A stretch of DNA of 64,000 bases from Aestuariivirga litoralis (GTDB lineage: Bacteria; Pseudomonadota; Alphaproteobacteria; Rhizobiales; Aestuariivirgaceae). Made by a program: the position numbers and the translations under genes. Where the stretch lies: assembly GCF_015714715.1 (NCBI RefSeq), contig NZ_WAHS01000001.1, positions 1,488,001-1,552,000 on the forward strand, read 5' to 3'. This document shows, one piece after another, positions 9,956 to 61,346 of the stretch (positions within the stretch are counted from its first letter, which is position 1; each line of letters starts with the position of its first letter). The notes under the pieces are model-generated. The model was not told where the DNA came from and made no database searches. It saw only the letters and a program-made list of their open reading frames with translations.

Positions 9956-11464
9956 TTAGCCCGCGTCGCGGCCCAGTGCGATGAAGTTCTGGCCCTGGGC
10001 CGACTTCACCAGCATCAGCACCTTCTTGGCGGAGGTCTTCTTCAAGGCATCCTTGACGCTTGATGCATCAGATACATCTTCGCCAGCGATCTTGAGGATC
10101 ACATCGCCCTCGCGCACGCCGCTGTCAGCGGCATCCGACTTCGGATCGACCTTGATGATCTTCACACCCTTGCCGCCGGGTGCCGGAGCCACTTCCAAGC
10201 CAAAGGCTGAAAGCGAGTTCGAACCGGTATCGGTTTCGGCATTGCTATCGTTGTTCTGGTCATTGCTGGCCAGCGATGCCTTGCCGGGCTGGATGCCCAA
10301 AGTCACGGTCACGGTTTCCGGCTTGCCGTCACGGATGATCGACAGTTTCACGTCCTTGCCGGGCGGGATGTTACCGATCAGCTTGGCAAGATCGCGGTCG
10401 GAAGCCACGTCCTGGCCGTCCACCTTGAGGATGGCATCACCAGGCTTCACACCGGCTTTCTTGGCAGGTGAATCAGCGGTGAGGTCATTGACCAACGCAC
10501 CCTTTGAGTCCGACAAGCCCATGCTTTCCGCAATATCAGCCGAAACCGGCTGGATCTGCACACCAAGCCAGCCGCGGGTGATCTTGCCGCCCGACTTGAG
10601 CTGCTCAATCACGTTGGAAGCCGTGGCCGCCGGAATGGCAAAGCCAATGCCGACCGAGCCGCCTGAAGGGGAGTAGATCGCGATGTTGATGCCGATCACT
10701 TCGCCATCAAGATTGAAGGTGGGGCCACCGGAATTGCCCTTGTTGATGGCAGCGTCGATCTGCAGGAAGTCATCATAGGGGCCATTGCCGATATCGCGGT
10801 GATGGGCGGAAACGATGCCCTTGGTCACGGTGCCGCCGAGGCCGAAGGGATTACCCACGGCCATGACAGTATCACCCACCTTGGCTTCGGTGCCGGCAAA
10901 GCTCACGGCAGGGAAGGTCTTGCCTTCGGCCTTGATCTTCAGCAGGGCCAGATCGGTCTTGGCATCAGTGCCGATCACCTTGGCATCATAGCTGTCGCCA
11001 TTTTCAAAGGTCACCTTCACGGTGGTGGCATCTTCCACCACGTGGTTGTTGGTGACCACATAACCATCCGCACTCATCACGAAGCCTGAGCCCAAAGCGC
11101 GTCCGCCGCCACGTTGCTGTGGCTGCGGGCTCTGGAACTTGAAGCCAGGGAACTGGTCGAAGAAGTGCTTCATTTCTGGGGGCATGCCACCGCTGCCGCC
11201 ATTGTCATTGTTGTCGCCATCATCGCTGTTGTCGGCTACGGCGGCTTTGTCGTTCAGCTTCACTTCGACGCTGACCACGGCCGGCATCACCTTCTCGACC
11301 AGCGGGTTGAGGGAGCGGGTGGCATCAAGTCCAGCCACATCGGCATGCGCCATCGGAACGGGCGGCAGCGCCACCAGAGCGGTGGTGAACATGCTGGCCG
11401 AAAGCAGGCCGGCGGTCACCAGACCATAGATGGTTTTACGGGAAAACTTGGGTTGGGATTTCAT
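9956..11464 (-). CDS. degP: DegP/HtrA family periplasmic serine endoprotease (Do-type)
   Basis: 502 residues with an AAGGAG ribosome site before the ATG. The N-terminus (about 1-42) is a signal peptide ending AHA. The trypsin-like domain carries His141 in VTNNHVVEDA, Asp171 in TDLALLK and Ser245 in NKGNSGGPTF, so the catalytic triad is complete. A Gly/Asp-rich flexible loop with NDNGGSGG lies at about residues 75-95. Two PDZ domains follow (about 275-370 and 400-495). The protein degrades or refolds damaged periplasmic proteins. The gene is followed by a strong terminator and then a response regulator/kinase pair, an arrangement seen beside ccm genes in rhizobia. Confidence 0.94.
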   Translation of the reverse strand: MKSQPKFSRKTIYGLVTAGLLSASMFTTALVALPPVPMAHADVAGLDATRSLNPLVEKVMPAVVSVEVKLNDKAAVADNSDDGDNNDNGGSGGMPPEMKHFFDQFPGFKFQSPQPQQRGGGRALGSGFVMSADGYVVTNNHVVEDATTVKVTFENGDSYDAKVIGTDAKTDLALLKIKAEGKTFPAVSFAGTEAKVGDTVMAVGNPFGLGGTVTKGIVSAHHRDIGNGPYDDFLQIDAAINKGNSGGPTFNLDGEVIGINIAIYSPSGGSVGIGFAIPAATASNVIEQLKSGGKITRGWLGVQIQPVSADIAESMGLSDSKGALVNDLTADSPAKKAGVKPGDAILKVDGQDVASDRDLAKLIGNIPPGKDVKLSIIRDGKPETVTVTLGIQPGKASLASNDQNNDSNAETDTGSNSLSAFGLEVAPAPGGKGVKIIKVDPKSDAADSGVREGDVILKIAGEDVSDASSVKDALKKTSAKKVLMLVKSAQGQNFIALGRDAG

Positions 11465-11635: not shown

Positions 11636-11700
11636 CCTTCTCCCGCCGCGACGGCGATGGGAGAAGGTGCCGACAGGCGGATGAGGGCATGGTTGACACC
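11636..11700. repeat. Palindromic REP-like unit, left flank of DUF559 gene
   Basis: A hairpin with 9-bp arms CCTTCTCCC (11636-11644) and GGGAGAAGG (11659-11667) has an inner GCCG/CGGC stem. It continues into TGCCGACAGGCGGATGAGGGC. The 13-base segment GGCGGATGAGGGC at 11676-11688 recurs in inverted orientation on the other side of the DUF559 gene at 12089-12101, so the gene is bracketed by inverted repeats. The motif resembles the intergenic palindromic repeats common in rhizobial genomes. Confidence 0.85.
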
Positions 11701-11727
11701 AGTTCCTGAGTCGCCTTGATTTGGGCG

Positions 11728-12084
11728 ATGGCTTACCAAAGCGAAATTGCCAATGAACGCGCCCGAGAGATGCGTAAGCGCGATACCATGGCGGAGCAAA
11801 GGCTTTGGGAAGCGCTGAGAGACAGACGGCTTTCAAATCTCAAGTTTGTACGCCAACTGCCAATTGGGCCTTATTTCACCGACTTTGCTTGCAGAGCGGA
11901 AAAGTTGGTGGTGGAAATTGATGGAGCAACGCATGGCGAGGTTCATGAGATTCATCACGACATTAAGCGCGAAGCCTTCTTGAGAGAGCGTGGCTGGCGG
12001 ATCATCCGCTGCTGGAATCAGGATGTGTATGAGAACCTGCCTGGCGTTTGCGATTCAATACTGATTGCTCTGAACAGGACCTGA
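11728..12084 (+). CDS. DUF559 endonuclease-like protein (VSR/PD-(D/E)XK type)
   Basis: 118 residues from the ATG at 11728 (MAYQSEIANERAREMRKRD). The core FVRQLPIGPYFTDFAC, then LVVEIDGATHGE and RGWRIIRCWNQDV, is the DUF559 signature, a restriction-endonuclease-like fold related to very-short-patch-repair nucleases. The Asp of YFTDFAC and the Glu of VVEIDG are the likely metal-binding residues. It is the only plus-strand gene between two minus-strand genes (degP and ccmE). It lies between inverted copies of a palindromic repeat. The cellular function of DUF559 proteins is not established. A second member occurs at 59387-59845, also with palindromes at both ends. Confidence 0.8.
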   Translation: MAYQSEIANERAREMRKRDTMAEQRLWEALRDRRLSNLKFVRQLPIGPYFTDFACRAEKLVVEIDGATHGEVHEIHHDIKREAFLRERGWRIIRCWNQDVYENLPGVCDSILIALNRT

Positions 12085-12088
12085 CCAC

Positions 12089-12209
12089 GCCCTCATCCGC
12101 CCTTCGGGCACCTTCTCCCATCCTTCGGACGGGAGAAGAAAATCATCTGCCCTCTCCCGTCGCAGATGGGAGAGGGTGCCGACAGGCGGGTAAGGGCTTG
12201 GTTGACGCC
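12089..12209. repeat. Tandem REP-like palindromes, right flank of DUF559 gene
   Basis: The block opens with GCCCTCATCCGCC (12089-12101), the exact inverse of the left-flank arm. It goes on to a hairpin CTTCTCCC/GGGAGAAG (12112-12119 and 12131-12138). A second hairpin has 9-bp arms CCCTCTCCC (12150-12158) and GGGAGAGGG (12168-12176), followed by TGCCGACAGGCGGGTAAGGG and TTGGTTGACGCC, a near-direct copy of the left flank. There are thus three units: one left, one inverted right and one direct right. The block ends 5 bases before the ccmE stop codon. Confidence 0.85.
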
Positions 12210-12213
12210 GTTT

Positions 12214-12657
12214 CTAGCCGCCGGCCTCAGGCTTCCACTCGCCTTGGGCCTTGAGCTTGTCTACAATTTCTTTCGGCATGTATTTCTCGTCGTGCTTGGC
12301 CAGCACGCTGTCAGCCTTGAAGGAACCATCACCTGCAGCCGATCCCTCGGCCACCACGCCCTGGCCTTCGCGGAACAGGTCGGGCAGCAAGCCCTTGTAA
12401 GTGACGTTCATCGTCTTGGTCATGTCGGTCACCCGGAAGGTGACGAGGCCATCATCGCCCTTCACCAGGCTGCCTTTTTCCACCAAGCCGCCCAGCCGTA
12501 CGCGGGTGCCGGGGGCGATGTTCTTGGCGATCATCTCGCTCGGCGTGTAGAAAAACACAATCGAGTCCCTGAGTGCAAACAGCACCAGACCCACCGCCAG
12601 GCCCAGAAGGGCGAGGCCGGAAAGGATCAAGGTCAAGCGGGTTTGCTTTCGGGTCAT
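12214..12657 (-). CDS. ccmE: Cytochrome c maturation protein CcmE (heme chaperone)
   Basis: 147 residues. An N-terminal membrane anchor ([22 protein letters not shown]) precedes the periplasmic OB-fold domain. The heme-attaching histidine is His122 in [12 protein letters not shown], with the family Tyr126. CcmE receives heme from CcmC and passes it to CcmF/CcmH for apocytochrome c. In rhizobia ccmE (cycJ) normally sits between ccmI and ccmF/ccmH in one operon, with degP downstream. Here neither neighbour is ccmI, ccmF or ccmH: a DUF559 gene with repeats occupies the downstream side and a divergent sox operon the upstream side. It is an intact but displaced or orphaned member of the system. 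Confidence 0.93.
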
Positions 12658-12771: not shown

Positions 12772-14028
12772 ATGCTGAAGCCCCGCTATTCCATATTCTC
12801 GCTCGCCCGCAATGCGATGAACTACCACAAGGACTGGGAACGCGCCTGGCGCTCGCCCAATCCCAAAGCTGAATATGATGCCGTGATCGTCGGCGCGGGC
12901 GGGCATGGCCTGGCCACCGCTTACTATCTCGCCAAGAACCACGGCATGCGCAATATCGCAGTGGTCGAAAAAGGCTGGCTGGGCGGCGGCAATACAGGGC
13001 GCAACACCACCATCATCCGCTCCAATTATCTGCAGGATCCGTCGATTGCGATCTATGAACTGGCGCGTTCGCTCTATGAGGGGCTGAGCCAGGAGCTGAA
13101 CTACAACATGATGTTCAGCCCGCGCGGCGTGCTCATGCTGTGCCAGACGCAGCATGAACTGCGCGCCTTCCAGCGCACCGCGCATGCCAACCGCCTTGCC
13201 GGTTTGGATTGTCGCATGGTCACGCCGGCCGAAGTGAAGCAGATCGTGCCGATCATCAATGATGATCCGAACTGCCGTTATCCGATCCTCGGCGCCTATT
13301 ACCAGCCGCGTGGCGGCACGGGGCGCCACGATGCCGTGGCCTGGGGCTATGCCCGCGGTGCCGACGACATGGGCGTGGATATTATCCAGAATTGTGAAGT
13401 CACCGGCATCCAGCGCGAAGGCGGCAAGGTTGTCGGCCTTGAAACCACGCGCGGCGTGATCAAGACCAAGAAAGTCGGCGTGGTCACCGCCGGCAATGTT
13501 TCCACAGTGATGGACATGGCCGGCATCCGCATGCCGATTGAAAGCCTGTGCCTGCAGGCGCTGGTATCGGAGCCGATCAAGCCGGTCATCGACTGCGTGG
13601 TGATGGCCAATACGGTGCATGGCTATATGAGCCAGTCCGACAAGGGCGAGCTGGTCATTGGCGGCGGCACTGATCCCTACAACAATTACTCGCAGCGCGG
13701 CTCGTTCCCGGCGCTGGAACACACGATCAATGCGCTCATTGAAACCTTCCCGATCATTTCGCGCCTGCGCATGCTACGCCAGTGGGGCGGCATCGTCGAT
13801 ATGACCGGTGACCGTTCGCCGATCATCGGCAAGACGCCGGTGGACGGCCTGTTCGTCAATTGCGGCTGGGGCACAGGTGGCTTCAAGGCCATTCCGGGTT
13901 CGGGCTGGGTGTTCGCCGATACGATCGCCAATGACCGCCCGCACAAGATTGCCGAGGCTTTCACCATGGACCGTTTCACCGAAGGCCGGTTCATCGACGA
14001 GTCCGTCGCTGCCGCCGTGGCGCATTAA
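12772..14028 (+). CDS. soxB: Sarcosine oxidase beta subunit, copy 1
   Basis: 418 residues. The FAD-binding Rossmann motif is VIVGAGGHGLATAY (about 40-55), followed by NTGRNTTIIRSNY. The RHDAVAWGYAR segment (about 185) contains the histidine expected to carry covalent FMN in heterotetrameric sarcosine oxidases. The C-terminal CGWGTGGFKAIPGSG is the second FAD-contact region. The subunit oxidatively demethylates sarcosine to glycine. It is the first gene of a four-gene operon in the standard order B, D, A, G, with 14 bases to soxD. A paralogue lies at 60087-61346. Confidence 0.95.
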   Translation: MLKPRYSIFSLARNAMNYHKDWERAWRSPNPKAEYDAVIVGAGGHGLATAYYLAKNHGMRNIAVVEKGWLGGGNTGRNTTIIRSNYLQDPSIAIYELARSLYEGLSQELNYNMMFSPRGVLMLCQTQHELRAFQRTAHANRLAGLDCRMVTPAEVKQIVPIINDDPNCRYPILGAYYQPRGGTGRHDAVAWGYARGADDMGVDIIQNCEVTGIQREGGKVVGLETTRGVIKTKKVGVVTAGNVSTVMDMAGIRMPIESLCLQALVSEPIKPVIDCVVMANTVHGYMSQSDKGELVIGGGTDPYNNYSQRGSFPALEHTINALIETFPIISRLRMLRQWGGIVDMTGDRSPIIGKTPVDGLFVNCGWGTGGFKAIPGSGWVFADTIANDRPHKIAEAFTMDRFTEGRFIDESVAAAVAH

Positions 14029-14042
14029 GGAGAGAGAGACAG

Positions 14043-14399
14043 ATGCTTCTTGTCACCTGCCCCATCTGCGGCGCCGAAGGCGATGAAACCGATTTTCACT
14101 TCGGTGGCCAGGCGCATATCGCACGCCCTGCCACGACCAATCCCGAAGGCATTACCGACGCACAGCAGCGCGAATATCTGTTCACGCGCATCAATCCGAA
14201 GGGTCTTCACTTCGAGCGTGCCCGCTGTGACCGTGGCTGCGGCAAGTGGTTCCACATTGCGCGCGACACGATGACGATGGAAATCAAAGCCTATTACGGC
14301 GTCACGGAATTGCCGCCGCCCGATATCATTGCCCAGGCCAAGGGTGGCTGGGCTGAACTGTTCGCGGAACGCACCGCTCACGCAAAGAAAACGAAATGA
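14043..14399 (+). CDS. soxD: Sarcosine oxidase delta subunit, copy 1
   Basis: 118 residues beginning MLLVTCPICGAEGDETDFHFGG. The N-terminal CPIC pair with the later CDRGCGKWFHIARDT region matches the zinc-binding delta subunit. It is longer than the 81-residue copy 2 because of a C-terminal extension (YYGVTELPPPD and beyond). The stop codon overlaps the soxA start in an ATGA junction, indicating translational coupling. The delta subunit has a structural role in the tetramer. Confidence 0.93.
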   Translation: MLLVTCPICGAEGDETDFHFGGQAHIARPATTNPEGITDAQQREYLFTRINPKGLHFERARCDRGCGKWFHIARDTMTMEIKAYYGVTELPPPDIIAQAKGGWAELFAERTAHAKKTK

Positions 14400-17300
14400 C
14401 CGGAAAACCTTATCGCCTCTCTGAAGGCGGCAGCCGCATTGACCGCACCAACCGCTTGACCATCAGCTTTGATGGCCGTGATGTGCCGGGCTTTGCTGGA
14501 GACACCGTAGCCTCCGCCGTGCTGGCTTCGGGCCAGAAAGTGTTTGGCCGTTCGTTCAAATATCACCGTCCGCGCGGCCTTGTGGGTTTGGGCTCAGAAG
14601 AGATGAATGCGCTGATCGGCGTGGGTGCGGATAACCGCCATGAGCCGAACCTGCGCGCCTCGCAGATTGAAGTGTTCCCCGGTCTCGTCGCTGAAAGCCA
14701 GAACCGCTGGCCGTCGCTGAATTTCGACATCGGTGCCTTGAATTCCAAGCTGTCGCGCTTCTTCCCGGGGGGCTTCTACTACAAGACTTTCATGTGGCCG
14801 CGTGCCTTCTGGAAGCATGTCTATGAGCCGATCATCCGCCGCGCCGCAGGCCTCGGCCGCGCTGCCAAGGGCCGCGATCCGGATACGTATGAGCACATGC
14901 ATATCCATGCTGATGTGCTGGTCGCAGGCGGCGGCATTGCCGGCATTCTTGCCGCGGAGGCCGCAGCCAAGGCCGGTGCCAAGGTTGTGCTGATCGATGA
15001 GAACCCGGTTCTGGGCGGCATTGCCGATCTCACTGCTGGTGCGATCAATGGCACGCGGCTGTCCGATTGGTTGGTCCCCGTCATCGACGCATTGAAGGCC
15101 ATGCCCAATGTGCATGTGCTGACGCGCACTACGGTGGTGGGCCACTATCACCACAACTTCCTGATGGCCGCTGAACGCGTGGCCGATCATGATCCATCTT
15201 TGCTGGCTGCCGGCGCACCGCGCCAACGCCTGTGGAAAATCCGTGCTTCGCAAGTGATCCTCGCCACGGGTGCGCTCGAACGCCCGATCGCCTTTGCCAA
15301 CAATGACCGCCCGAATATCATGCTGGCCTCCACCGCGCGCGGCCTGGTGGATCGCTACGGCGTTTCGCCGGGCACCAATGGCGTTGTCTTCACCAACAAT
15401 GATGATGCCTATCTCACCGCCTTTGTGTTGAAGAAAGCCGGCGTGAATGTGCAGGTGGTGGACAGCCGCGCGCGCCCCGAAGGTGCATTGGTCAAGCGCG
15501 CTGAAGCCGAAGGCATTCAAGTTTCTGTCTCGTCCGTCATCTCCGCTGTCGAAGGTACGATGGGCGTGAAATCCGTCAAGATCGCTGCCTACCGCAAGGG
15601 CCAGGGCCGCGTGATCACCGAGAAGAAAGTGGATTGTGATTTCATCGCCATGTCCGGCGGCTGGAACCCGGCTTTGCATCTCTGGGCGCATAATGGCGGC
15701 AAAATCAAGTTTGACGACGGTCTGCAAAGCTTCCGCCCGGATACGCATCACGCCGCGATGGTGGCCATTGGCGCGGCCAATGGCACGATGAGTGTCGCTG
15801 ACACGATTACCGAAGCGCAAGCAGCGGGTGAAGCCGCCGCCAAGGCCACGCTCAAGAAAGCCAAGGCCGTGAAGCCGAGCAAGATCGAAGTGACCGAGCC
15901 GCAGCGCGGCGCATCGGAGTCGCTCTGGTTCGCGCCTGCTACTGGCCACTATAATGAAGGCAACAAGCACTTCATCGATTTCCAGAATGATGTAACCGCC
16001 GCTGACCTCGAACTGGCGCAGCGCGAAGGCTATGAAAGCGTGGAGCACACCAAGCGCTACACCACCTTCGGCATGGCCACCGACCAGGGCAAGACGTCGA
16101 ACCTCAATGGCCTCGGCGTGCTGTCGGAAGCAACGGGAAAGTCCATTCCGCAGATCGGCACAACCACATTCCGCCCGCCCTACACGCCTTATTCCTTCGG
16201 CGCGATTGCAGGTTCGCTCACCAATGAACTGTTCCTGCCTGTCCGCCGCACCGCCATTTTCAACTGGCACATGGAAAAGGGCGCAACCTGGGAACCGGTG
16301 GGCCAATGGCGCCGCGCCTATACTTACACCCGCCCCGGCGAAGACAAACACCAGTCCATCGCACGCGAAATTTTGGGCGTGCGCAACAAAGTCGGCCTGC
16401 TCGATGCCTCGACGCTCGGCAAGATCGAGATCAAGGGGCCTGATGCGGCCGAATTCCTCGACCGGGTTTACACCAACACCTATTCCACGCTGAAAGTCGG
16501 CAAGTGCCGTTACGGCCTGATGATGAATGAGTTGGGCTTCCTCACTGACGACGGTGTCACCGTGCGTCTGGGTGAAGATCATTTCCTCATGCACACAACA
16601 TCGGGCGGTGCGGATCGCATTGCCGCCTGGCTGGAAGAATGGCTGCAGACCGAATGGACGCAATACAAAGTGTTCGTCACCCCGGTCACCGAGCAATGGT
16701 CGCAATTTGCCATGACCGGCCCGCATGCGCGCGAAGTGCTGGCCAAGCTTGATCCTGATTTCGATATTTCGAATGAAGCCTTCCCGCATATGAGCTTCAA
16801 GATCGGCAAGCTGGGCACGTTCCCGGTGCGCGTCTTCCGCATCTCCTTCTCGGGCGAGCAATCCTATGAGCTGGCCACTCCCACGGGCTACGGAATGTCA
16901 CTGTGGAAGGCGATCCAGGATGCCGGCGTTGAATTCGGCCTTGAAACCTATGGCACCGAAGCGCTGCACGTGTTGCGTGCCGAAAAGGGCTATATCGTCA
17001 TCGGCGATGAAACCGATGGCACCACCACGCCGGATGACGTTGGCTTTGGTGGCATGGTCTCGAAAAAGAAGCCGGACTTCCTGGGCAAGCGCTCGCTGGA
17101 ACAGTCCTATCTCAAGGCTGCGAACCGCAAGCAATTGGTGGGCCTGCTCACCGAAGACCCGCAGGAGGTTCTGCCTGACGGTGCCTATGCGGTGGCCGAG
17201 GTGAAGGATAAGCCGCCGATGCAGATGATCGGCCAGGTCACCTCGACCTATATGTCGCCGACGTTGGGCCGCTCGATTGCCATGGCGCTGATCGAGAATG

Positions 17301-17416
17301 GCCGGGCCCGCATGGGCGAGACAATCTCCTTCCCGCTGGAAGGCGGCAAGGTGGTGAAGGCCAAGATCACCAGCACAGTATTCTATGACGTTGACGGAGG
17401 GCGCATCAGTGCTTGA
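14396..17416 (+). CDS. soxA: Sarcosine oxidase alpha subunit, copy 1
   Basis: 1006 residues. The N-terminal part contains the 2Fe-2S-ferredoxin-like fold without clusters (FAGDTVASAVLASGQKVFGR, RSFKYHRPRG). A dinucleotide-binding domain follows with VLVAGGGIAGILAAEAAAKAG (about residue 180), then the NNDRPNIMLASTARG segment. The C-terminal third is an aminomethyltransferase (GCV_T) domain where tetrahydrofolate accepts the methyl carbon; SFSGEQSYEL and GTEALHVLRAEKGYIVIGDE are typical of it. The product side is 5,10-methylene-THF, or formaldehyde when folate is absent. It is coupled to soxD by ATGA and overlaps soxG by 8 bases. Confidence 0.95.
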   Translation: MTGKPYRLSEGGSRIDRTNRLTISFDGRDVPGFAGDTVASAVLASGQKVFGRSFKYHRPRGLVGLGSEEMNALIGVGADNRHEPNLRASQIEVFPGLVAESQNRWPSLNFDIGALNSKLSRFFPGGFYYKTFMWPRAFWKHVYEPIIRRAAGLGRAAKGRDPDTYEHMHIHADVLVAGGGIAGILAAEAAAKAGAKVVLIDENPVLGGIADLTAGAINGTRLSDWLVPVIDALKAMPNVHVLTRTTVVGHYHHNFLMAAERVADHDPSLLAAGAPRQRLWKIRASQVILATGALERPIAFANNDRPNIMLASTARGLVDRYGVSPGTNGVVFTNNDDAYLTAFVLKKAGVNVQVVDSRARPEGALVKRAEAEGIQVSVSSVISAVEGTMGVKSVKIAAYRKGQGRVITEKKVDCDFIAMSGGWNPALHLWAHNGGKIKFDDGLQSFRPDTHHAAMVAIGAANGTMSVADTITEAQAAGEAAAKATLKKAKAVKPSKIEVTEPQRGASESLWFAPATGHYNEGNKHFIDFQNDVTAADLELAQREGYESVEHTKRYTTFGMATDQGKTSNLNGLGVLSEATGKSIPQIGTTTFRPPYTPYSFGAIAGSLTNELFLPVRRTAIFNWHMEKGATWEPVGQWRRAYTYTRPGEDKHQSIAREILGVRNKVGLLDASTLGKIEIKGPDAAEFLDRVYTNTYSTLKVGKCRYGLMMNELGFLTDDGVTVRLGEDHFLMHTTSGGADRIAAWLEEWLQTEWTQYKVFVTPVTEQWSQFAMTGPHAREVLAKLDPDFDISNEAFPHMSFKIGKLGTFPVRVFRISFSGEQSYELATPTGYGMSLWKAIQDAGVEFGLETYGTEALHVLRAEKGYIVIGDETDGTTTPDDVGFGGMVSKKKPDFLGKRSLEQSYLKAANRKQLVGLLTEDPQEVLPDGAYAVAEVKDKPPMQMIGQVTSTYMSPTLGRSIAMALIENGRARMGETISFPLEGGKVVKAKITSTVFYDVDGGRISA

Positions 17417-55987: not shown

Positions 55988-56482
55988 TCAGAGGCCTTCA
56001 GCGGCGTCCGTCAGCCATTCCCACATCGAAAGCGCGAAGGTGCGCATCACGTATATATGGAATGTGTTGGGCTTGACGCAATGGATGGTCACCGGCGTGT
56101 GGTGGATGCCGGTCATCACATAGTGTCCGGTGCTGAAGACCGATGGCGAGAAATCCACCGGGGCGCAGGCAAACAGAAGTGCGCGTGCCTTGTCGCCTTC
56201 CAGCACAATGCGGGTGCGGCCCGATGACAGCGGTGTGACATAGAGCGATTTTGAATCGACAACCGGGCCGATTGACCAGACCTGATCCTCACTCACCTGC
56301 AAAACCGTGCGGCCACCGGAAGACTGCGCGGTTCCGAACTCGAGTTTTACATCCAGTTCGCGTTCCAGGATGCGCTGCGTGGCAGCATATTGGGTGAGCT
56401 GCAGCTTCGTACCTTCGGAAAGCGTGAGGCCTTCAATCTCGAAGCGGGCTTCCTTGCCCAGAGGTGATGTTGCTTCAAGCAT
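55988..56482 (-). CDS. soxG: Sarcosine oxidase gamma-like subunit, copy 2
   Basis: 164 residues, shorter and clearly diverged from copy 1. ERELDVKLEFGTAQSSGGRT, VLQVSEDQVWSIGPV and the terminal HIYVMRTFALSMWEWLTDAA correspond to the gamma-subunit fold. It overlaps the end of soxA copy 2 by 8 bases, exactly as in the first operon. It is the last gene of the minus-strand operon. Confidence 0.82.
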   Translation of the reverse strand: MLEATSPLGKEARFEIEGLTLSEGTKLQLTQYAATQRILERELDVKLEFGTAQSSGGRTVLQVSEDQVWSIGPVVDSKSLYVTPLSSGRTRIVLEGDKARALLFACAPVDFSPSVFSTGHYVMTGIHHTPVTIHCVKPNTFHIYVMRTFALSMWEWLTDAAEGL

Positions 56483-59390
56483 TGAGCCTGGTTCCCTGCC
56501 TGTCGATGAAATGCGGGCTGACGATGCGCAGGCGCACCTGTTCGTCCTTCAACGGGAAGGCCGCGATGATTTCCTCGTTCTCGTGTTTCAAACCTTCCTT
56601 GAACAAGCCAAGCGCCACAAAGGTTTGCAGATCGGTGGAATAAGTGACCGAAGTGACATAGCCGCGGCCATGGCCCTTGATCTCATCACCGGCGGCAAAC
56701 AGAATGGCGCCGCCGCGCAGCTTCTTGTCGGGCTCCAGAAGTTCGAGGCCCACAAGGCTCCAGCGATCAGGTGACATATTGTCTTCACGCTCGCGCAGCA
56801 CTTCGCCGACGAAGGACTTTTTGTTGGATGCCATCTTGCCGAGGCCCAGATCATCCAGCGTGTTGCGGTGATCGAGTTCCTGACTGGCGACGTGGCCTTT
56901 TTCGACGCGCAAGGATGCCAGGGCTTCAAGGCCATAAGGCTTGAGGCCGATGGGCTCGCCCGCTTTCAGGATGCGTTCCCATAGAGCAGGCAGATAATTG
57001 GCGGGGCAATGCACTTCATAAGCCAGCTCACCAGAGAAGGAGACGCGCAGGATGCGCAAAGTGACACCTTCAAACTTGATGTCCTTCACGCCCATATAGG
57101 GCAGGTTTTCGGTTGAAAGGTTTTCGTGGATGAAGGCCAGTTCCAGCGCACGGCGCGCATTGGGGCCTGCAACCGCAAGGCCACCCCATTCATCGGTGAG
57201 CGAGGCGAGGTGCACGTCCAGATCTGGCCAATGCATCTGCAACAGGAATTCCAGCCAGCTCATCACTTCGCCGGCCTGGGCGGTGGTGGTGGTCATATAA
57301 TATTGCGTATCGGAAATGCGGCTGGTGGTGCCGTCATCCAGTACCAGGCCATCGTCATTCAACATCACGCCATAGCGCGCCTTACCGACGGGCAGTTTGG
57401 CGAAACCGTTCACATAAACGCGGTTGAGGAATTCAGCGGCATCCTTGCCCTGAATATCAATCTTGCCGAGGGAGGACACATCGCTGATGCCGACATTGCG
57501 GCGCACGAGGTCCATCTCTTTCAGATAAGCTTCTTCGGGCGTGTTGCCGGCCCAATTGTAATACCAGCAGCGCTTCCACAGGCCGGCTTCGATGAACACA
57601 CCGCCATTCTTTTCGTGCCAGTCATGCAGCGGCGTGCGGCGGGTGGGACGCATATGATGGCCCATGCTGCGGCCAACGATTGCGCCAATGGTGAGTGGCG
57701 TGAAAGGCGGACGGAAGGTGGTGGTGCCGACCTTTTCGATGTCGTCATTGCGCAGGTTCGCCATCATGGCCAGCGCGTTGATGTTCGACGTCTTGCCCTG
57801 GTCGGTGCCCATGCCCAGCGTGGTGTAACGCTTCAAGTGCTCGACCTGCAGATAGCCTTCATCCTTGGCCTGGGCGATGTCTTTCGCCGTCACGTCATTC
57901 TGGAAATCGACGAAGGCCTTCGGAGCCTTGTGGGCGGGCCAGATATTGGAGATAGCATAAGGTCTGTCGGGCGCAATGTCCGGGCGGGCAACGCCGACGG
58001 ATTTACCATTGCTATTGCCCAGATGCACGATGGCGGCTTTCGCCTGCGCTTCGCCCTGCTCCACCGCGGAGCGCGTTCCAAAATTCCCGGCGCAAGCGCC
58101 TGCCGCGAAGTGACCGGCAACCAATTTGCCCGGCACGAAGCTGGTGATGGCTTCATTGTAAACCGGCTTCACGCCCAGATGCGAGGTGAGATGGACGATC
58201 GGGTTCCAGCCGCCGCTCATGCCGACCACATCGCATTTCAGAGTGATTTCATGCGGGCCGGAAAGCTCGACGGACTCGACGCTGCTGGTGCCATGCACCT
58301 TGGCGATGCCGCTATTGGCGAAAACTACAGCACCTGCCTTGGCGGCCTTGGTGAGAAGGTCGCCTGCGATATCCTTCCGCTCATCCGCCACAAACACGGA
58401 AACGCCGTGGGATGCGAGATCAAAAGCTGCATCATAGGCGCTGTCATTGTTTGTGGCGATGACGGCGCGGGTTTGTGGCACGACGGCATAGCGGTTGGCA
58501 TAGGCGCGCAAGGCCGAGGCCAGCATCACACCGGGGCGGTCATTGTTCTGGAACACCAGCGGGCGCTCAATGGCACCGGTGGCATGAATGATCGTCCGTG
58601 CACGGAGCGATTCCAACAGATTATCGCCAATGGTGATGATGGCCTGGCCACCGTCATAGAGGCCGGCCACAGTGGCCTTGGTCAACAAGCGCACATTGGC
58701 GGCCTTGCTAAGGGTGGCCACCGATTGTTCGCGCCATAGCAGCAATTTCTCATCGCGCGACGAGAGGATGCTGCCGCCCAGTTCTGAATCCTGTTCGGTT
58801 AGAACCACGGTCACGCCTGACTGGGCTGCAGCCAAAGCCGCCGCCAGACCTGCCGGGCCTGAGCCAATCACCAGCACATCACAGAAGCCGTAACGTGAAT
58901 CATGGCGCTGTGACGTGCCTTGCGGGCCGGTTTTGCCCAGGCCTGCCGCCTTGCGGATGAAGGGCTCATAGAACATCCAGGCCTTCTGGACCGGGCCCAT
59001 GAAGGTCTTGTAGTAAAAGCCCGCGCCGAAGAGTGGCGAGAACAGCTGATTGATGCCGCCGAAATCAAATGCCGGGCTGGGCCAGGCATTCTGGCTTTTG
59101 GCGGTGAGGCCTTCAGTAAGCGGCAATGTTGTGGCGCGGGTGTTGGGCTGCTCAGCGCCATCCTTGCCGATGGTGAACAGCGCATTCGCCTCTTCCACGC
59201 CAGCACTCATGATGCCGCGCGGGCGGTGATATTTGAACGAACGCGCATTGAGGATCGCGTTGTTAGCCAGCATGGCAGACGCCAACGTATCGCCGGCAAA
59301 GCCTTTCAGCGTGCTGCCATTGTAGCGGAACGAAAGCGTTTGGCCGCGATCAATACGGCCCCCTTCACTGAGACGACGAAACTTGGTCAT
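56475..59390 (-). CDS. soxA: Sarcosine oxidase alpha subunit, copy 2
   Basis: 971 residues with the same domain order as copy 1. A cluster-free ferredoxin-like N-terminus (FAGDTLASAMLANNAILNAR, SFKYHRPRG) leads to a dinucleotide-binding domain (VLVIGSGPAGLAAALAAAQS), then the QNNDRPGVMLASALRAYANR segment. The C-terminal half is an aminomethyltransferase/folate domain (SFSGELAYEVHCPANYLPAL, GLEALASLRVEKGHVASQEL). Its ATG overlaps the stop of a DUF559 gene in an ATGA junction, rather than overlapping soxD. Substrate may be sarcosine or another N-methyl amino acid. Confidence 0.93.
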   Translation of the reverse strand: MTKFRRLSEGGRIDRGQTLSFRYNGSTLKGFAGDTLASAMLANNAILNARSFKYHRPRGIMSAGVEEANALFTIGKDGAEQPNTRATTLPLTEGLTAKSQNAWPSPAFDFGGINQLFSPLFGAGFYYKTFMGPVQKAWMFYEPFIRKAAGLGKTGPQGTSQRHDSRYGFCDVLVIGSGPAGLAAALAAAQSGVTVVLTEQDSELGGSILSSRDEKLLLWREQSVATLSKAANVRLLTKATVAGLYDGGQAIITIGDNLLESLRARTIIHATGAIERPLVFQNNDRPGVMLASALRAYANRYAVVPQTRAVIATNNDSAYDAAFDLASHGVSVFVADERKDIAGDLLTKAAKAGAVVFANSGIAKVHGTSSVESVELSGPHEITLKCDVVGMSGGWNPIVHLTSHLGVKPVYNEAITSFVPGKLVAGHFAAGACAGNFGTRSAVEQGEAQAKAAIVHLGNSNGKSVGVARPDIAPDRPYAISNIWPAHKAPKAFVDFQNDVTAKDIAQAKDEGYLQVEHLKRYTTLGMGTDQGKTSNINALAMMANLRNDDIEKVGTTTFRPPFTPLTIGAIVGRSMGHHMRPTRRTPLHDWHEKNGGVFIEAGLWKRCWYYNWAGNTPEEAYLKEMDLVRRNVGISDVSSLGKIDIQGKDAAEFLNRVYVNGFAKLPVGKARYGVMLNDDGLVLDDGTTSRISDTQYYMTTTTAQAGEVMSWLEFLLQMHWPDLDVHLASLTDEWGGLAVAGPNARRALELAFIHENLSTENLPYMGVKDIKFEGVTLRILRVSFSGELAYEVHCPANYLPALWERILKAGEPIGLKPYGLEALASLRVEKGHVASQELDHRNTLDDLGLGKMASNKKSFVGEVLREREDNMSPDRWSLVGLELLEPDKKLRGGAILFAAGDEIKGHGRGYVTSVTYSTDLQTFVALGLFKEGLKHENEEIIAAFPLKDEQVRLRIVSPHFIDRQGTRLNA

Positions 59391-59845
59391 GGCTGCACCA
59401 CCTGTTCAGCCCCTCCCCCTTGTGGGGAGGGGTTTGGGGTGGGGATGAGTGCTTGCAGTTCACACTCGATAGCGTGATGCACTCCGGCCGAATTTTTCAG
59501 CACGTCGATATTGAAGAACCGCAGGACCTTGAATCCTTCTTTGTTCAGAAATTCTGTTCGCGCCGCGTCCTTCCGCAGGCCCGCATCTTCTGAATGCTGG
59601 CTGCCATCCACTTCGATGATCAGCTTGAAATGGTGACTGAGAAAATCTGCGAAATACGGGCCGATTTGTACCTGGCGGCGGAAGTGAGCTTTTGGCCAAT
59701 CGATGTCGCGCAGGATGTGCCACATTTTTTTTTCGGCATCTGTTGGGGAGTTGCGGAGTTGGCGGGCACGAGCGGCCCCACCCGGCTGCTTCGCAGCCGC
59801 CCTCCCCCTGAAGGGGAGGGTCTGGCTTGGAGATGAGGCAGGCAT
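59387..59845 (-). CDS. DUF559 endonuclease-like protein inserted in sox operon 2
   Basis: 152 residues. The core LRNSPTDAEKKMWHILRDID, FRRQVQIGPYFADFLSHHF, LIIEVDGSQHSEDAGLRKDA and GFKVLRFFNIDVL is the DUF559 fold, with candidate catalytic Asp in YFADF and Glu in IIEVDG. The N-terminal SQTLPFRGRAAAKQPGG and C-terminal LIPTPNPSPQGGG are encoded by GC-rich palindromic hairpins at each end. The ATG overlaps the soxD stop (TAATG) and the stop overlaps the soxA start (ATGA). It thus sits seamlessly inside an otherwise standard soxBDAG operon. Confidence 0.82.
   Translation of the reverse strand: MPASSPSQTLPFRGRAAAKQPGGAARARQLRNSPTDAEKKMWHILRDIDWPKAHFRRQVQIGPYFADFLSHHFKLIIEVDGSQHSEDAGLRKDAARTEFLNKEGFKVLRFFNIDVLKNSAGVHHAIECELQALIPTPNPSPQGGGAEQVVQP
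59410..59432. repeat. Palindrome at 3' end of DUF559 copy 2
   Basis: A 9-bp stem CCCCTCCCC/GGGGAGGGG with a CTTGT loop lies inside the last codons of the DUF559 gene. It is followed by TTTGGGGTGGGG. It is a mirror of the hairpin at 59800-59820 near the gene start. Confidence 0.8.
59783..59820. repeat. Paired hairpins at 5' end of DUF559 copy 2
   Basis: Two adjacent hairpins are present: CGGCTGC/GCAGCCG at 59783-59799 and CCCTCCCC/GGGGAGGG at 59800-59820. Both lie within the first 25 codons of the DUF559 gene. The CCCTCCCC/GGGGAGGG stem matches the hairpin at the other end of the gene. Confidence 0.8.
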
Positions 59846-60090
59846 TATTCCACGCCTCCGAGGATTTCATTGGTGGATGTGTCGCGGCGCAGGCGGAACC
59901 ATTGGCGGCAGCCCAATGTGTGCTGCCAAAATTCCACATGCGGGCCTTTGGGATTGTCGAACACAAACACATAATCGTGCCAAGTCTTCATACCCTTGGC
60001 GCCATGCTCAGGGCGCGCCTTCGATGCATCCGAGCCATAGCGGAATTCGCTGACGTCGCGTTCACCACAATGCGGGCAGGGAATTCTCAT
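59845..60090 (-). CDS. soxD: Sarcosine oxidase delta subunit, copy 2
   Basis: 81 residues, shorter than copy 1. RIPCPHCGERDVSEFRYG and the later HTLGCRQWFRLRRDTSTNEI match the zinc-binding delta subunit. It overlaps the soxB stop by 4 bases (ATGA). Its own stop overlaps the DUF559 start instead of soxA. Confidence 0.93.
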   Translation of the reverse strand: MRIPCPHCGERDVSEFRYGSDASKARPEHGAKGMKTWHDYVFVFDNPKGPHVEFWQHTLGCRQWFRLRRDTSTNEILGGVE

Positions 60091-61346
60091 TGCTTGTATG
60101 TCCAGTTGCCGATGCCATGCTCGTCAAGCTCCTTGCCCTTCATCAGGCGGTCGAGCGCGAAGCCGGCATTGAGTTCATGCGGGGCGTTGTTGACAATCGT
60201 ATGCGCAAAGGTGAGGCCGGAAGCCGGCGTGGCCTTGAAGCCCTGATAGCACCAGCCGCCATTGAGGTAGAGGCCATCTACGGGCGTCGTACAAATGAAG
60301 GGCGAGCCATCAGGCGTCATGTCATTGATGCCGCCCCAATGGCGCAACAGACGCATGCGCGCCATGAAGGGCATGAGCGCCACGGCGCATTCCATCACGT
60401 CCTTCATTTTGAAATATTGGCCGCGCTGGGTGAAGGTATTGAAGCCATCGAGATGGCCACCGAACACCATGCCGCCCTTGTCGGATTGCGACAGGTAGAA
60501 CAGTTCCGCACCCCAAGAGATGACGTGATGGACGAGCGGCTTCACCGGCTCAGTCACGAAGGCCTGCAGGATATGGGTTTCGACAGGCAGCTTCATGCCC
60601 GCCATCTTGGCCACTTGCGAGGTGTGGCCGGCGACCGCGATGCCCACCTTATCGGCCAGGATCTTGCCGCGCGTGGTTTCCACACCCGTGACCTTGTTGC
60701 CGGTTTTCAGGATTTTGGTGACTTCGCAATTCTCAATAATGTGCACGCCCAGTTGCGAGGCGGCACGGGCATAGCCCCAGGCCACCGCGTCATGGCGCAC
60801 CGTGCCGGCGCGGCGCTGGTGGATCGCGCCATGGATGGGGAAGCGCGCATCCTTCGAGTAATCGAGATAGGGCACTTCCTTCTCAAGCTCGCTGCGGCTC
60901 AACAGTTCGGCATCGATGCCATGCAGGCGCATGGTGTTGCCACGGCGGGCGAAGGCATCCATCTGCACGGGCGATACCGCCACCACGATCTGCCCGCGAT
61001 GCGAGACCATGCAGTTGAAATCCAGCTCGTGGGACAGGCCCTCCCACATCTGCAGCGACTTTTCGAAGAAGGCCGTGTTGGCGCCGAGCATATAGTTGGA
61101 GCGGATGATGGTGGTGTTGCGGCCCACATTACCCGAGCCGATATAACCCTTTTCCAGCACCGCGACATTGGTGATGCCGTGGTTCTTCGCCAGGTAATAG
61201 GCAGTGGCCAGGCCGTGCCCGCCGCCGCCGATAATGATCACATCATAATTGGGTTTCGGTGTGGGCTTGGCCCAGGCTTCAGGCCAGGGACCAGCGCCAC
61301 GCGCCGCGTGTTTGAGGATGGAAAATATCGAGTAGCCTTTGGCCAT
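60087..61346 (-). CDS. soxB: Sarcosine oxidase beta subunit, copy 2
   Basis: 419 residues. The FAD motif is VIIIGGGGHGLATAYYLAKN, followed by NVGRNTTIIRSNY. The RHDAVAWGYAR segment with the expected FMN-linked histidine and the C-terminal GGWCYQGFKATPASG are present. Differences from copy 1 in the region around HQRRAGTVRHDA and in LRHWGGINDMTPDGSPFICT suggest a diverged substrate range or an independent origin. It is the first gene of the minus-strand operon, downstream of an MFS transporter that could be co-transcribed (gap 69 bases). Confidence 0.94.
   Translation of the reverse strand: MAKGYSIFSILKHAARGAGPWPEAWAKPTPKPNYDVIIIGGGGHGLATAYYLAKNHGITNVAVLEKGYIGSGNVGRNTTIIRSNYMLGANTAFFEKSLQMWEGLSHELDFNCMVSHRGQIVVAVSPVQMDAFARRGNTMRLHGIDAELLSRSELEKEVPYLDYSKDARFPIHGAIHQRRAGTVRHDAVAWGYARAASQLGVHIIENCEVTKILKTGNKVTGVETTRGKILADKVGIAVAGHTSQVAKMAGMKLPVETHILQAFVTEPVKPLVHHVISWGAELFYLSQSDKGGMVFGGHLDGFNTFTQRGQYFKMKDVMECAVALMPFMARMRLLRHWGGINDMTPDGSPFICTTPVDGLYLNGGWCYQGFKATPASGLTFAHTIVNNAPHELNAGFALDRLMKGKELDEHGIGNWTYKQ

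Follow-up and report, generated by a model that had tools for sequence, protein, structure and literature searches.

A DUF559 nuclease gene bracketed by hairpin-plus-tail repeats: a candidate mobile unit organised like REP-RAYT

Why does a small nuclease gene stand between inverted copies of a palindromic repeat, and do gene and repeats belong together? The question is raised by a locus of Aestuariivirga litoralis, located in a stretch of 64,000 nucleotides, called the window below, which covers positions 1,488,001-1,552,000 of contig NZ_WAHS01000001.1. The gene lies on the plus strand at 11728-12084 (ATG at 11728, TGA at 12084, 118 codons) and its product matches the Pfam family PF04480, DUF559 (114 bits, 3.1e-33). 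On its left, a plus-strand repeat (11636-11688) is made up of a hairpin (11636-11667) and a purine-rich tail (11676-11688) directed toward the gene. On its right, an inverted repeat (12089-12138, minus strand) also has its tail toward the gene (12089-12101), followed by its hairpin (12111-12138). The left tail is the 13-mer GGCGGATGAGGGC and the right tail its exact inverse, each adjoined by a hairpin of the CCTTCTCCC/GGGAGAAG type, just as a preliminary description of the locus had reported. A third repeat (12150-12197, plus strand) is in direct orientation, with a hairpin at 12150-12176 and a tail at 12185-12197 pointing away from the gene. The preliminary description took it for a direct copy; the repeat is indeed there, and its tail differs from GGCGGATGAGGGC at two positions. 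The right and third repeats make up a doublet. When folded as DNA, the left repeat (11636-11690) has a z-score of -2.81 and the doublet (12087-12200) closes into one long hairpin with a z-score of -7.67; the fold z-score of the right repeat (12089-12138) is -3.75. Both neighbours of the DUF559 gene, an htrA-like protease gene (9956-11464) and ccmE (12214-12657), are on the minus strand, so that the gene is, as first described, a lone plus-strand gene.

Taken within the window alone, the number of 13-mers is weak evidence against chance. Three matches with at most one mismatch are found for 0.39 expected, and 2 of 100 shuffles also reach three. At the scale of the host genome (3.33 Mb in four contigs), the exact 13-mer occurs 11 times and its reversed control is absent. 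The flanks of the gene contain inverted pairs of 24 nt (88%) and 16 nt (100%). Alignment of the left flank with the inverted right flank gives a score of 31, while 0/406 control open reading frames (ORFs) reach 16. Of the three DUF559 genes in the host genome, two fall within the window. By eye, all three are flanked on both sides by palindromes, and these belong to three different families. Two other readings of the repeats were tried and rejected. A search for known RNA families returned six matches, all far under the gathering score. An insertion of the DUF559 gene into the spacer of a doublet does not fit either, the tails being directed inward at this locus and outward in the four stand-alone family A doublets of the host genome.

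The second DUF559 unit of the window (59387-59845, minus strand) matches PF04480, occupies the gap between soxD and soxA and carries a repeat family different from that of the first unit. Its repeats fall within its 152-codon ORF, which is joined to soxD and soxA through overlapping stop and start codons (TAATG and ATGA). Its inverted-flank score is just 12.5 and was counted as a miss. The window contains two sarcosine oxidase operons (soxB, soxD, soxA), at 12772-17416 and 56475-61346, with SoxA 40% and SoxD 39% identical between them. In the operon at 12772-17416, soxD and soxA overlap directly, without a DUF559 unit, this being a comparison of paralogues and not of alleles.

Bracketing of DUF559 genes by inverted repeats was surveyed by taking 300 bp of flank on either side of each gene and aligning the left flank with the reverse-complemented right flank, with a threshold score of 16. 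The genus sample consists of 80 DUF559 matches in 37 genomes, from which eight low-scoring ones were left out. Two of the 72 loci used were dropped for flanks shorter than 80 bp, leaving 70 testable loci. Inverted repeats bracket 57 of these 70. The threshold is also reached by 5/8 new loci from other genera of the family, by 19/30 loci from 64 class genomes with a match, by 17/27 new loci from 86 phylum genomes with a match, and by 1/3 named loci. As a control, windows of equal size were slid along other parts of the loci; these windows overlap one another, are the sole control for the samples wider than the genus, and reach the threshold in 6/1297 (genus), 0/144 (family), 5/612 (class), 8/556 (phylum), and 0/243 (named loci) cases. 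At the genus level, a second control uses the ORFs of the window and of 20 stretches of 20 kb set at round positions in genus genomes. Inverted repeats are far commoner around DUF559 genes (57/70) than around these ORFs (0/406), including those with at least 60 bp of intergenic DNA on both sides (0/91). The bracketing of DUF559 genes by inverted repeats is real and general.

The strict test leaves out 13 of the 70 genus loci, the second unit of the window included. When the requirement is relaxed, so that inverted repeats or a purine/pyrimidine hairpin on at least one side suffice, 137/138 testable loci are positive, or 136/137 distinct loci since L041 and L056 are the same locus; a purine/pyrimidine hairpin adjoins 33/406 control ORFs. 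The hairpin test is blind to imperfect stems and scores 14 loci as hairpin-less. One of these, L046, has a short flank; of the 13 others, 12 pass the inverted-repeat test, and L109, the one exception on the looser criterion, fails both.

The repeats also follow the protein. The preliminary description had asked whether palindrome families go with particular DUF559 clades; across the 57 bracketed genus loci, repeat similarity tracks protein identity (Mantel rho 0.235, a value reached in 0/2000 permutations). Pairs from different genomes with at least 60% protein identity have a median repeat similarity of 0.68, vs. 0.21-0.24 for less alike pairs. Paralogues within one genome have a median of 0.20. 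The relationship is also seen without shared surroundings: 59 of the 91 close pairs have no detected flank homology (no blastn match within at most 1.5 kb per side), and their repeat similarity is again 0.68. The rule is broken by L078/L082, L040/L072, L013/L014, and L014/L018, within the 40 close pairs (of 91) that were listed. Paralogues of one genome often differ in repeat family, the same family being found twice in G023, G024, and G026, and many loci match none of seven repeat patterns.

Copy numbers can be followed for individual families. Family A has a median of 12 copies in the 12 genomes with an A-flanked DUF559 gene vs. 3 in those without (p 0.0125 for all genomes, 0.0041 for complete genomes). 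After subtraction of three copies per positive genome, p is 0.047 and 0.021, respectively. These p-values overstate independence because the genomes are related. Four genomes (G027, G010, G028, and G033) have 12-31 family A copies and no A-flanked gene; another, G036, has 16 copies and one DUF559 gene whose A-like flanks were missed by the pattern. In the five genomes without a DUF559 match, family A copies number zero in four and six in one. Family B, searched with a strict pattern, has 15 copies in 8/37 genomes, and 9 of the 15 are beside a DUF559 gene.

If gene and repeats form a unit, sites that lack both should exist in relatives, a check put forward with the first description. The interval between ccmE and htrA measures 752 bp in the host genome. 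It measures 170, 154, 150, and 159 bp in the four relatives G023, G018, G015, and G017, respectively, where the DUF559 gene is absent and so, by eye, are the repeats. In the remaining 25 of the 30 ccmE loci, htrA is missing from that side. At another locus, a doublet-DUF559-doublet arrangement of Sinorhizobium sp. C101 separates two genes that are about 10 bp apart in Shinella sp. PSBB067. A whole unit can also be found twice. In G024, two DUF559 units with 8 kb between them have 676 bp in common (87% identity) within unrelated surroundings, and the shared segment stops at the outer repeat at one end and some 25 bp past it at the other. Together with the bracketing and the match between repeat family and protein, the empty sites support the initial view of a minimal mobile unit with inverted termini. 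Of the two outcomes that the preliminary description had named as refuting it, repeats no commoner than elsewhere and a lack of empty sites, neither was observed. Inspection by eye of L066/L068 and of 22 unit edges revealed no target-site duplication, the relatives being too divergent for exact boundaries. In Escherichia coli, the DUF559 gene ycjD is missing at sapF in about 2000 genomes. Three such alleles (L153, L154, and L155) have efflux genes beside sapF and are therefore replacements rather than clean empty sites.

Besides, the interval of S. meliloti that matches the C101 unit also contains the insertion sequence ISRm16 (L152, CP090106.1, 3583-4746). In S. meliloti it directly adjoins the unit's right-hand repeat, and it is absent from the C101 relative. 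No empty site came from pSymB records, since the S. meliloti record H1, although labelled a plasmid, looks chromosomal from its 3.7 Mb.

A common form of the repeat consists of a CCCTCTCCC-loop-GGGAGAGGG hairpin with a purine tail behind it, for example TTGGGGTGAGGG. This form recalls the “intrastrand triplex” (TM/PIT) motifs that Holder et al. (2015, PMC4666352) described in E. coli and in over 260 genomes. In the parts of that article available to us, the motifs are tied to genome instability, five pairs are inverted in E. coli MG1655, the authors found no mobility gene near the motifs, and no associated gene class or mobility function is reported. A motif of E. coli formed a triplex in vitro, while stable triplexes in vivo were, according to the authors, unsupported (PMC4666352, same parts). 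Judged from their sequences, many of the repeats flanking DUF559 genes share the TM/PIT form. The resemblance lies in the general CCCTCTCCC...GGGAGAGGG plus purine tail layout, in the occurrence of inverted pairs and in the position beside E. coli ycjD. The preliminary description had mentioned neither these motifs nor ycjD. The family of the window departs from it by a variant arm and a variant tail (GGGAGAAGG, GGATGAGGG).

In a purine-type triplex, the tail has to mirror the purine arm of the hairpin, G being set against G, and A or T against A. For the 69 distinct arms scored, an arm's own tail gives a mirror score of 7.57 of 9 and swapped tails give 6.72 (sd 0.08). The own-tail score is reached in 0/2000 shuffles, and letter-shuffled own tails score 6.14. 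A hairpin with a tail mirroring its purine arm, as in TM/PIT motifs, is thus a property of these DUF559 repeats, even if composition and kinship may contribute to the excess.

E. coli ycjD is present in 3365/5426 E. coli genomes and has TM/PIT-type motifs on its right side only; a Klebsiella DUF559 locus also has a motif on one side. The inverted score is 48.5 at a Deinococcus locus and 40 at a Pseudanabaena locus, where the flanks lie within a long annotated DUF559 ORF. It is below 16 at three cyanobacterial loci and at a Neisseria locus. Of these loci, which come from other phyla or from Neisseria, 4/6 have a TM/PIT-type hairpin in their flanks, and the Neisseria motif is clear.

Three of the loci examined, L222, L225, and L221, are on cyanobacterial plasmids, with DUF559 near BREX pglX or DUF1156 methylase genes; this context may indicate a defence-linked DUF559 subgroup. 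For the window's own gene, identification as a defence gene was rejected, PADLOC matches being partial and weak (the best, 1.3e-5, is to DpdF over 49 residues).

At the scale of whole genomes, 249 genomes of the phylum sample were scored with one TM pattern, and 27 were classed as rich. A strong DUF559 match occurs in 23/27 TM-rich genomes vs. 38/222 others (Fisher p 1.8e-12, uncorrected for kinship); at other cut-offs, 25/34 and 20/24 of the rich genomes have one. Four genomes (G110, G298, G382, and G439) are TM-rich, with 16-130 copies, and have no strong DUF559 match; another enzyme, a missed gene or a recent loss are possible reasons. The host genome has 0 copies of that TM pattern, and its repeat families differ.

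What kind of enzyme accompanies these repeats? The structure model of the DUF559 protein has a mean pLDDT of 91.5 and a pTM of 0.84. Its best match among solved structures with Foldseek is 3hrl, itself a DUF559 protein. The next is 3r3p, the domain of the homing endonuclease I-Bth0305I (E 1.4e-4), also matched by profile (3.2e-5). The Vsr structure 1cw0 comes with an E-value of 0.032, after some mitochondrial ribosomal proteins. On the basis of the model, the product of 11728-12084 is assigned to the Vsr-like, PD-(D/E)XK-type nuclease fold, with the predicted fold nearest to the I-Bth0305I domain and more weakly similar to Vsr. Ten residues are invariant in 69 sequences, among them the acidic residues E23, D52, E63, and D78 and the histidine H69. 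The profile alignment with 3r3p matches E63 and D78 and leaves H69 unmatched. For the EDxHD family, we take the defining residues to be those in its name.

This resemblance invites an explanation by homing. DUF559 would then act as a homing endonuclease of Vsr/EDxHD fold, free-standing and cutting those alleles that are devoid of the unit, and the repeats, spread by other means, would be mere boundaries or sites where repair starts. The closeness of I-Bth0305I, first among solved structures after 3hrl, speaks for it, as do units gained and lost whole. However, homing by itself leaves unexplained both the match between repeat family and protein and the scattered copies without a gene. Moreover, likeness to I-Bth0305I and Vsr is one of fold: the DUF559 protein, encoded between repeats, consists of the nuclease domain alone, without the additional DNA-binding regions reported for this homing endonuclease family in the part of the source consulted (PMC3943268), and H69 has no match in I-Bth0305I in the profile alignment. 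No intron context was seen in the gene neighbourhood of DUF559 in the window. We consider this explanation unlikely.

A role in DNA upkeep is less plausible still. DUF559 would be a repair nuclease clearing hairpins, triplexes or mismatches, found beside the repeats as its substrate or accumulating with them at tolerant sites. The precedent is Caulobacter VsrA, which shares the DUF559 domain. In the sections of the article at hand, VsrA is treated as a mismatch-repair-like enzyme and is required in the DNA damage response when the methylase ScmA is absent (PMC12907096); the terms “palindrom” and “intergenic repeat” do not occur in the main text. The link drawn between the repeats and genome instability (Holder et al., PMC4666352, as far as available) points the same way. 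Nevertheless, a repair function has no need for inverted repeats of the gene's own family, for patchiness among relatives or for duplication together with the repeats.

Another enzyme could move the repeats and carry the DUF559 gene as cargo. Repeats without a gene do exist, as do the four TM-rich genomes without a strong DUF559 match. Nonetheless, the cargo would then always be of the same nuclease family, with a matching repeat family, and 0/406 other ORFs are so bracketed. The candidate RAYT enzyme is also missing from the host genome: PF01797, the RAYT-type Y1 gene, is absent there and has matches in 7/37 genus genomes. The cargo explanation is therefore very improbable. Nor is DUF559 a RAYT in disguise; the product of 11728-12084 contains DUF559 and REase_MTES_1575 as its Pfam domains and no Y1/HuH domain, and there is no Y1 gene in the host genome. 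Finally, hardly any credence is left for the palindromes being terminators or similar intergenic hairpins with a meaningless bracketing. Such palindromes in Enterobacter sp. 638 were presumed to act in termination (PMC2869309, in the part consulted), but 0/406 control ORFs reach the inverted score, which speaks against terminators or chance, and repeat family tracks protein.

The reading that we favour, and hold to be probable, is that the locus is a unit composed of a DUF559 nuclease gene and its own hairpin-plus-tail repeats, working like REP-RAYT systems. It is founded on the bracketing of 57/70 loci, the co-variation of repeat and protein, the empty sites and the duplicated unit, together with the co-occurrence of TM-rich genomes and DUF559, family A numbers, the mirror tails, the nuclease fold and the lack of a Y1 gene. 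Against it stand the TM-rich genomes without a strong DUF559 match, family A copies without an A-flanked gene, the weaker copy-number difference once local copies are subtracted, the discordant close pairs, the 13/70 unbracketed loci, the one-sided motifs of ycjD and the fact that no target-site duplication was recognised.

For the comparison, RAYT features were taken from the portions consulted of two articles (PMC2817692, PMC3116915). As in REP/REPIN-RAYT (TnpA-REP) systems, a nuclease gene is placed amid inverted palindromic repeats, the repeat family tracks the enzyme, paralogues in one genome are distinct as a rule, and stand-alone repeat doublets exist. GTAG-tagged REPs are a separate class (PMC3733652, as seen in part). 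In contrast to REP-RAYT, DUF559 is no Y1/HuH transposase, and its repeats are pyrimidine/purine hairpins with a mirror tail. The RAYT parallel, drawn from the outset, is apt in organisation; that DUF559 moves the repeats, we infer. In such a mechanism, the nuclease would recognise its cognate repeat by the folded end, where a hairpin carries the purine tail, possibly as an intrastrand triplex, and would cut there. Repair would then copy the repeat doublet, and occasionally the gene together with the repeats on both sides, to a different and mostly intergenic location.

Systems of repeats plus nuclease are already known, and neither DUF559 nor its repeats are shown to be related to the parts of REP-RAYT. 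The repeats themselves were previously described. Our literature search, which covered few subscription papers, found no paper linking DUF559 with these repeats and suggests that the DUF559 partner is new. We propose tentatively, and with somewhat less assurance than for the locus itself, that TM/PIT triplex repeats across bacterial phyla have DUF559 proteins, among them E. coli YcjD, as their cognate enzymes. Together they would form a second, independently evolved mobile system of repeat plus nuclease, in which a nuclease of Vsr fold recognises a hairpin/triplex end. If so, the origin of TM/PIT repeats would be explained, and the REP-RAYT arrangement would have arisen twice from unrelated parts. 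A cognate nuclease would turn an orphan class of repeats into a testable system, including in E. coli K-12, and a likely substrate could be assigned to DUF559, a widespread family that owes its name to its unknown function.
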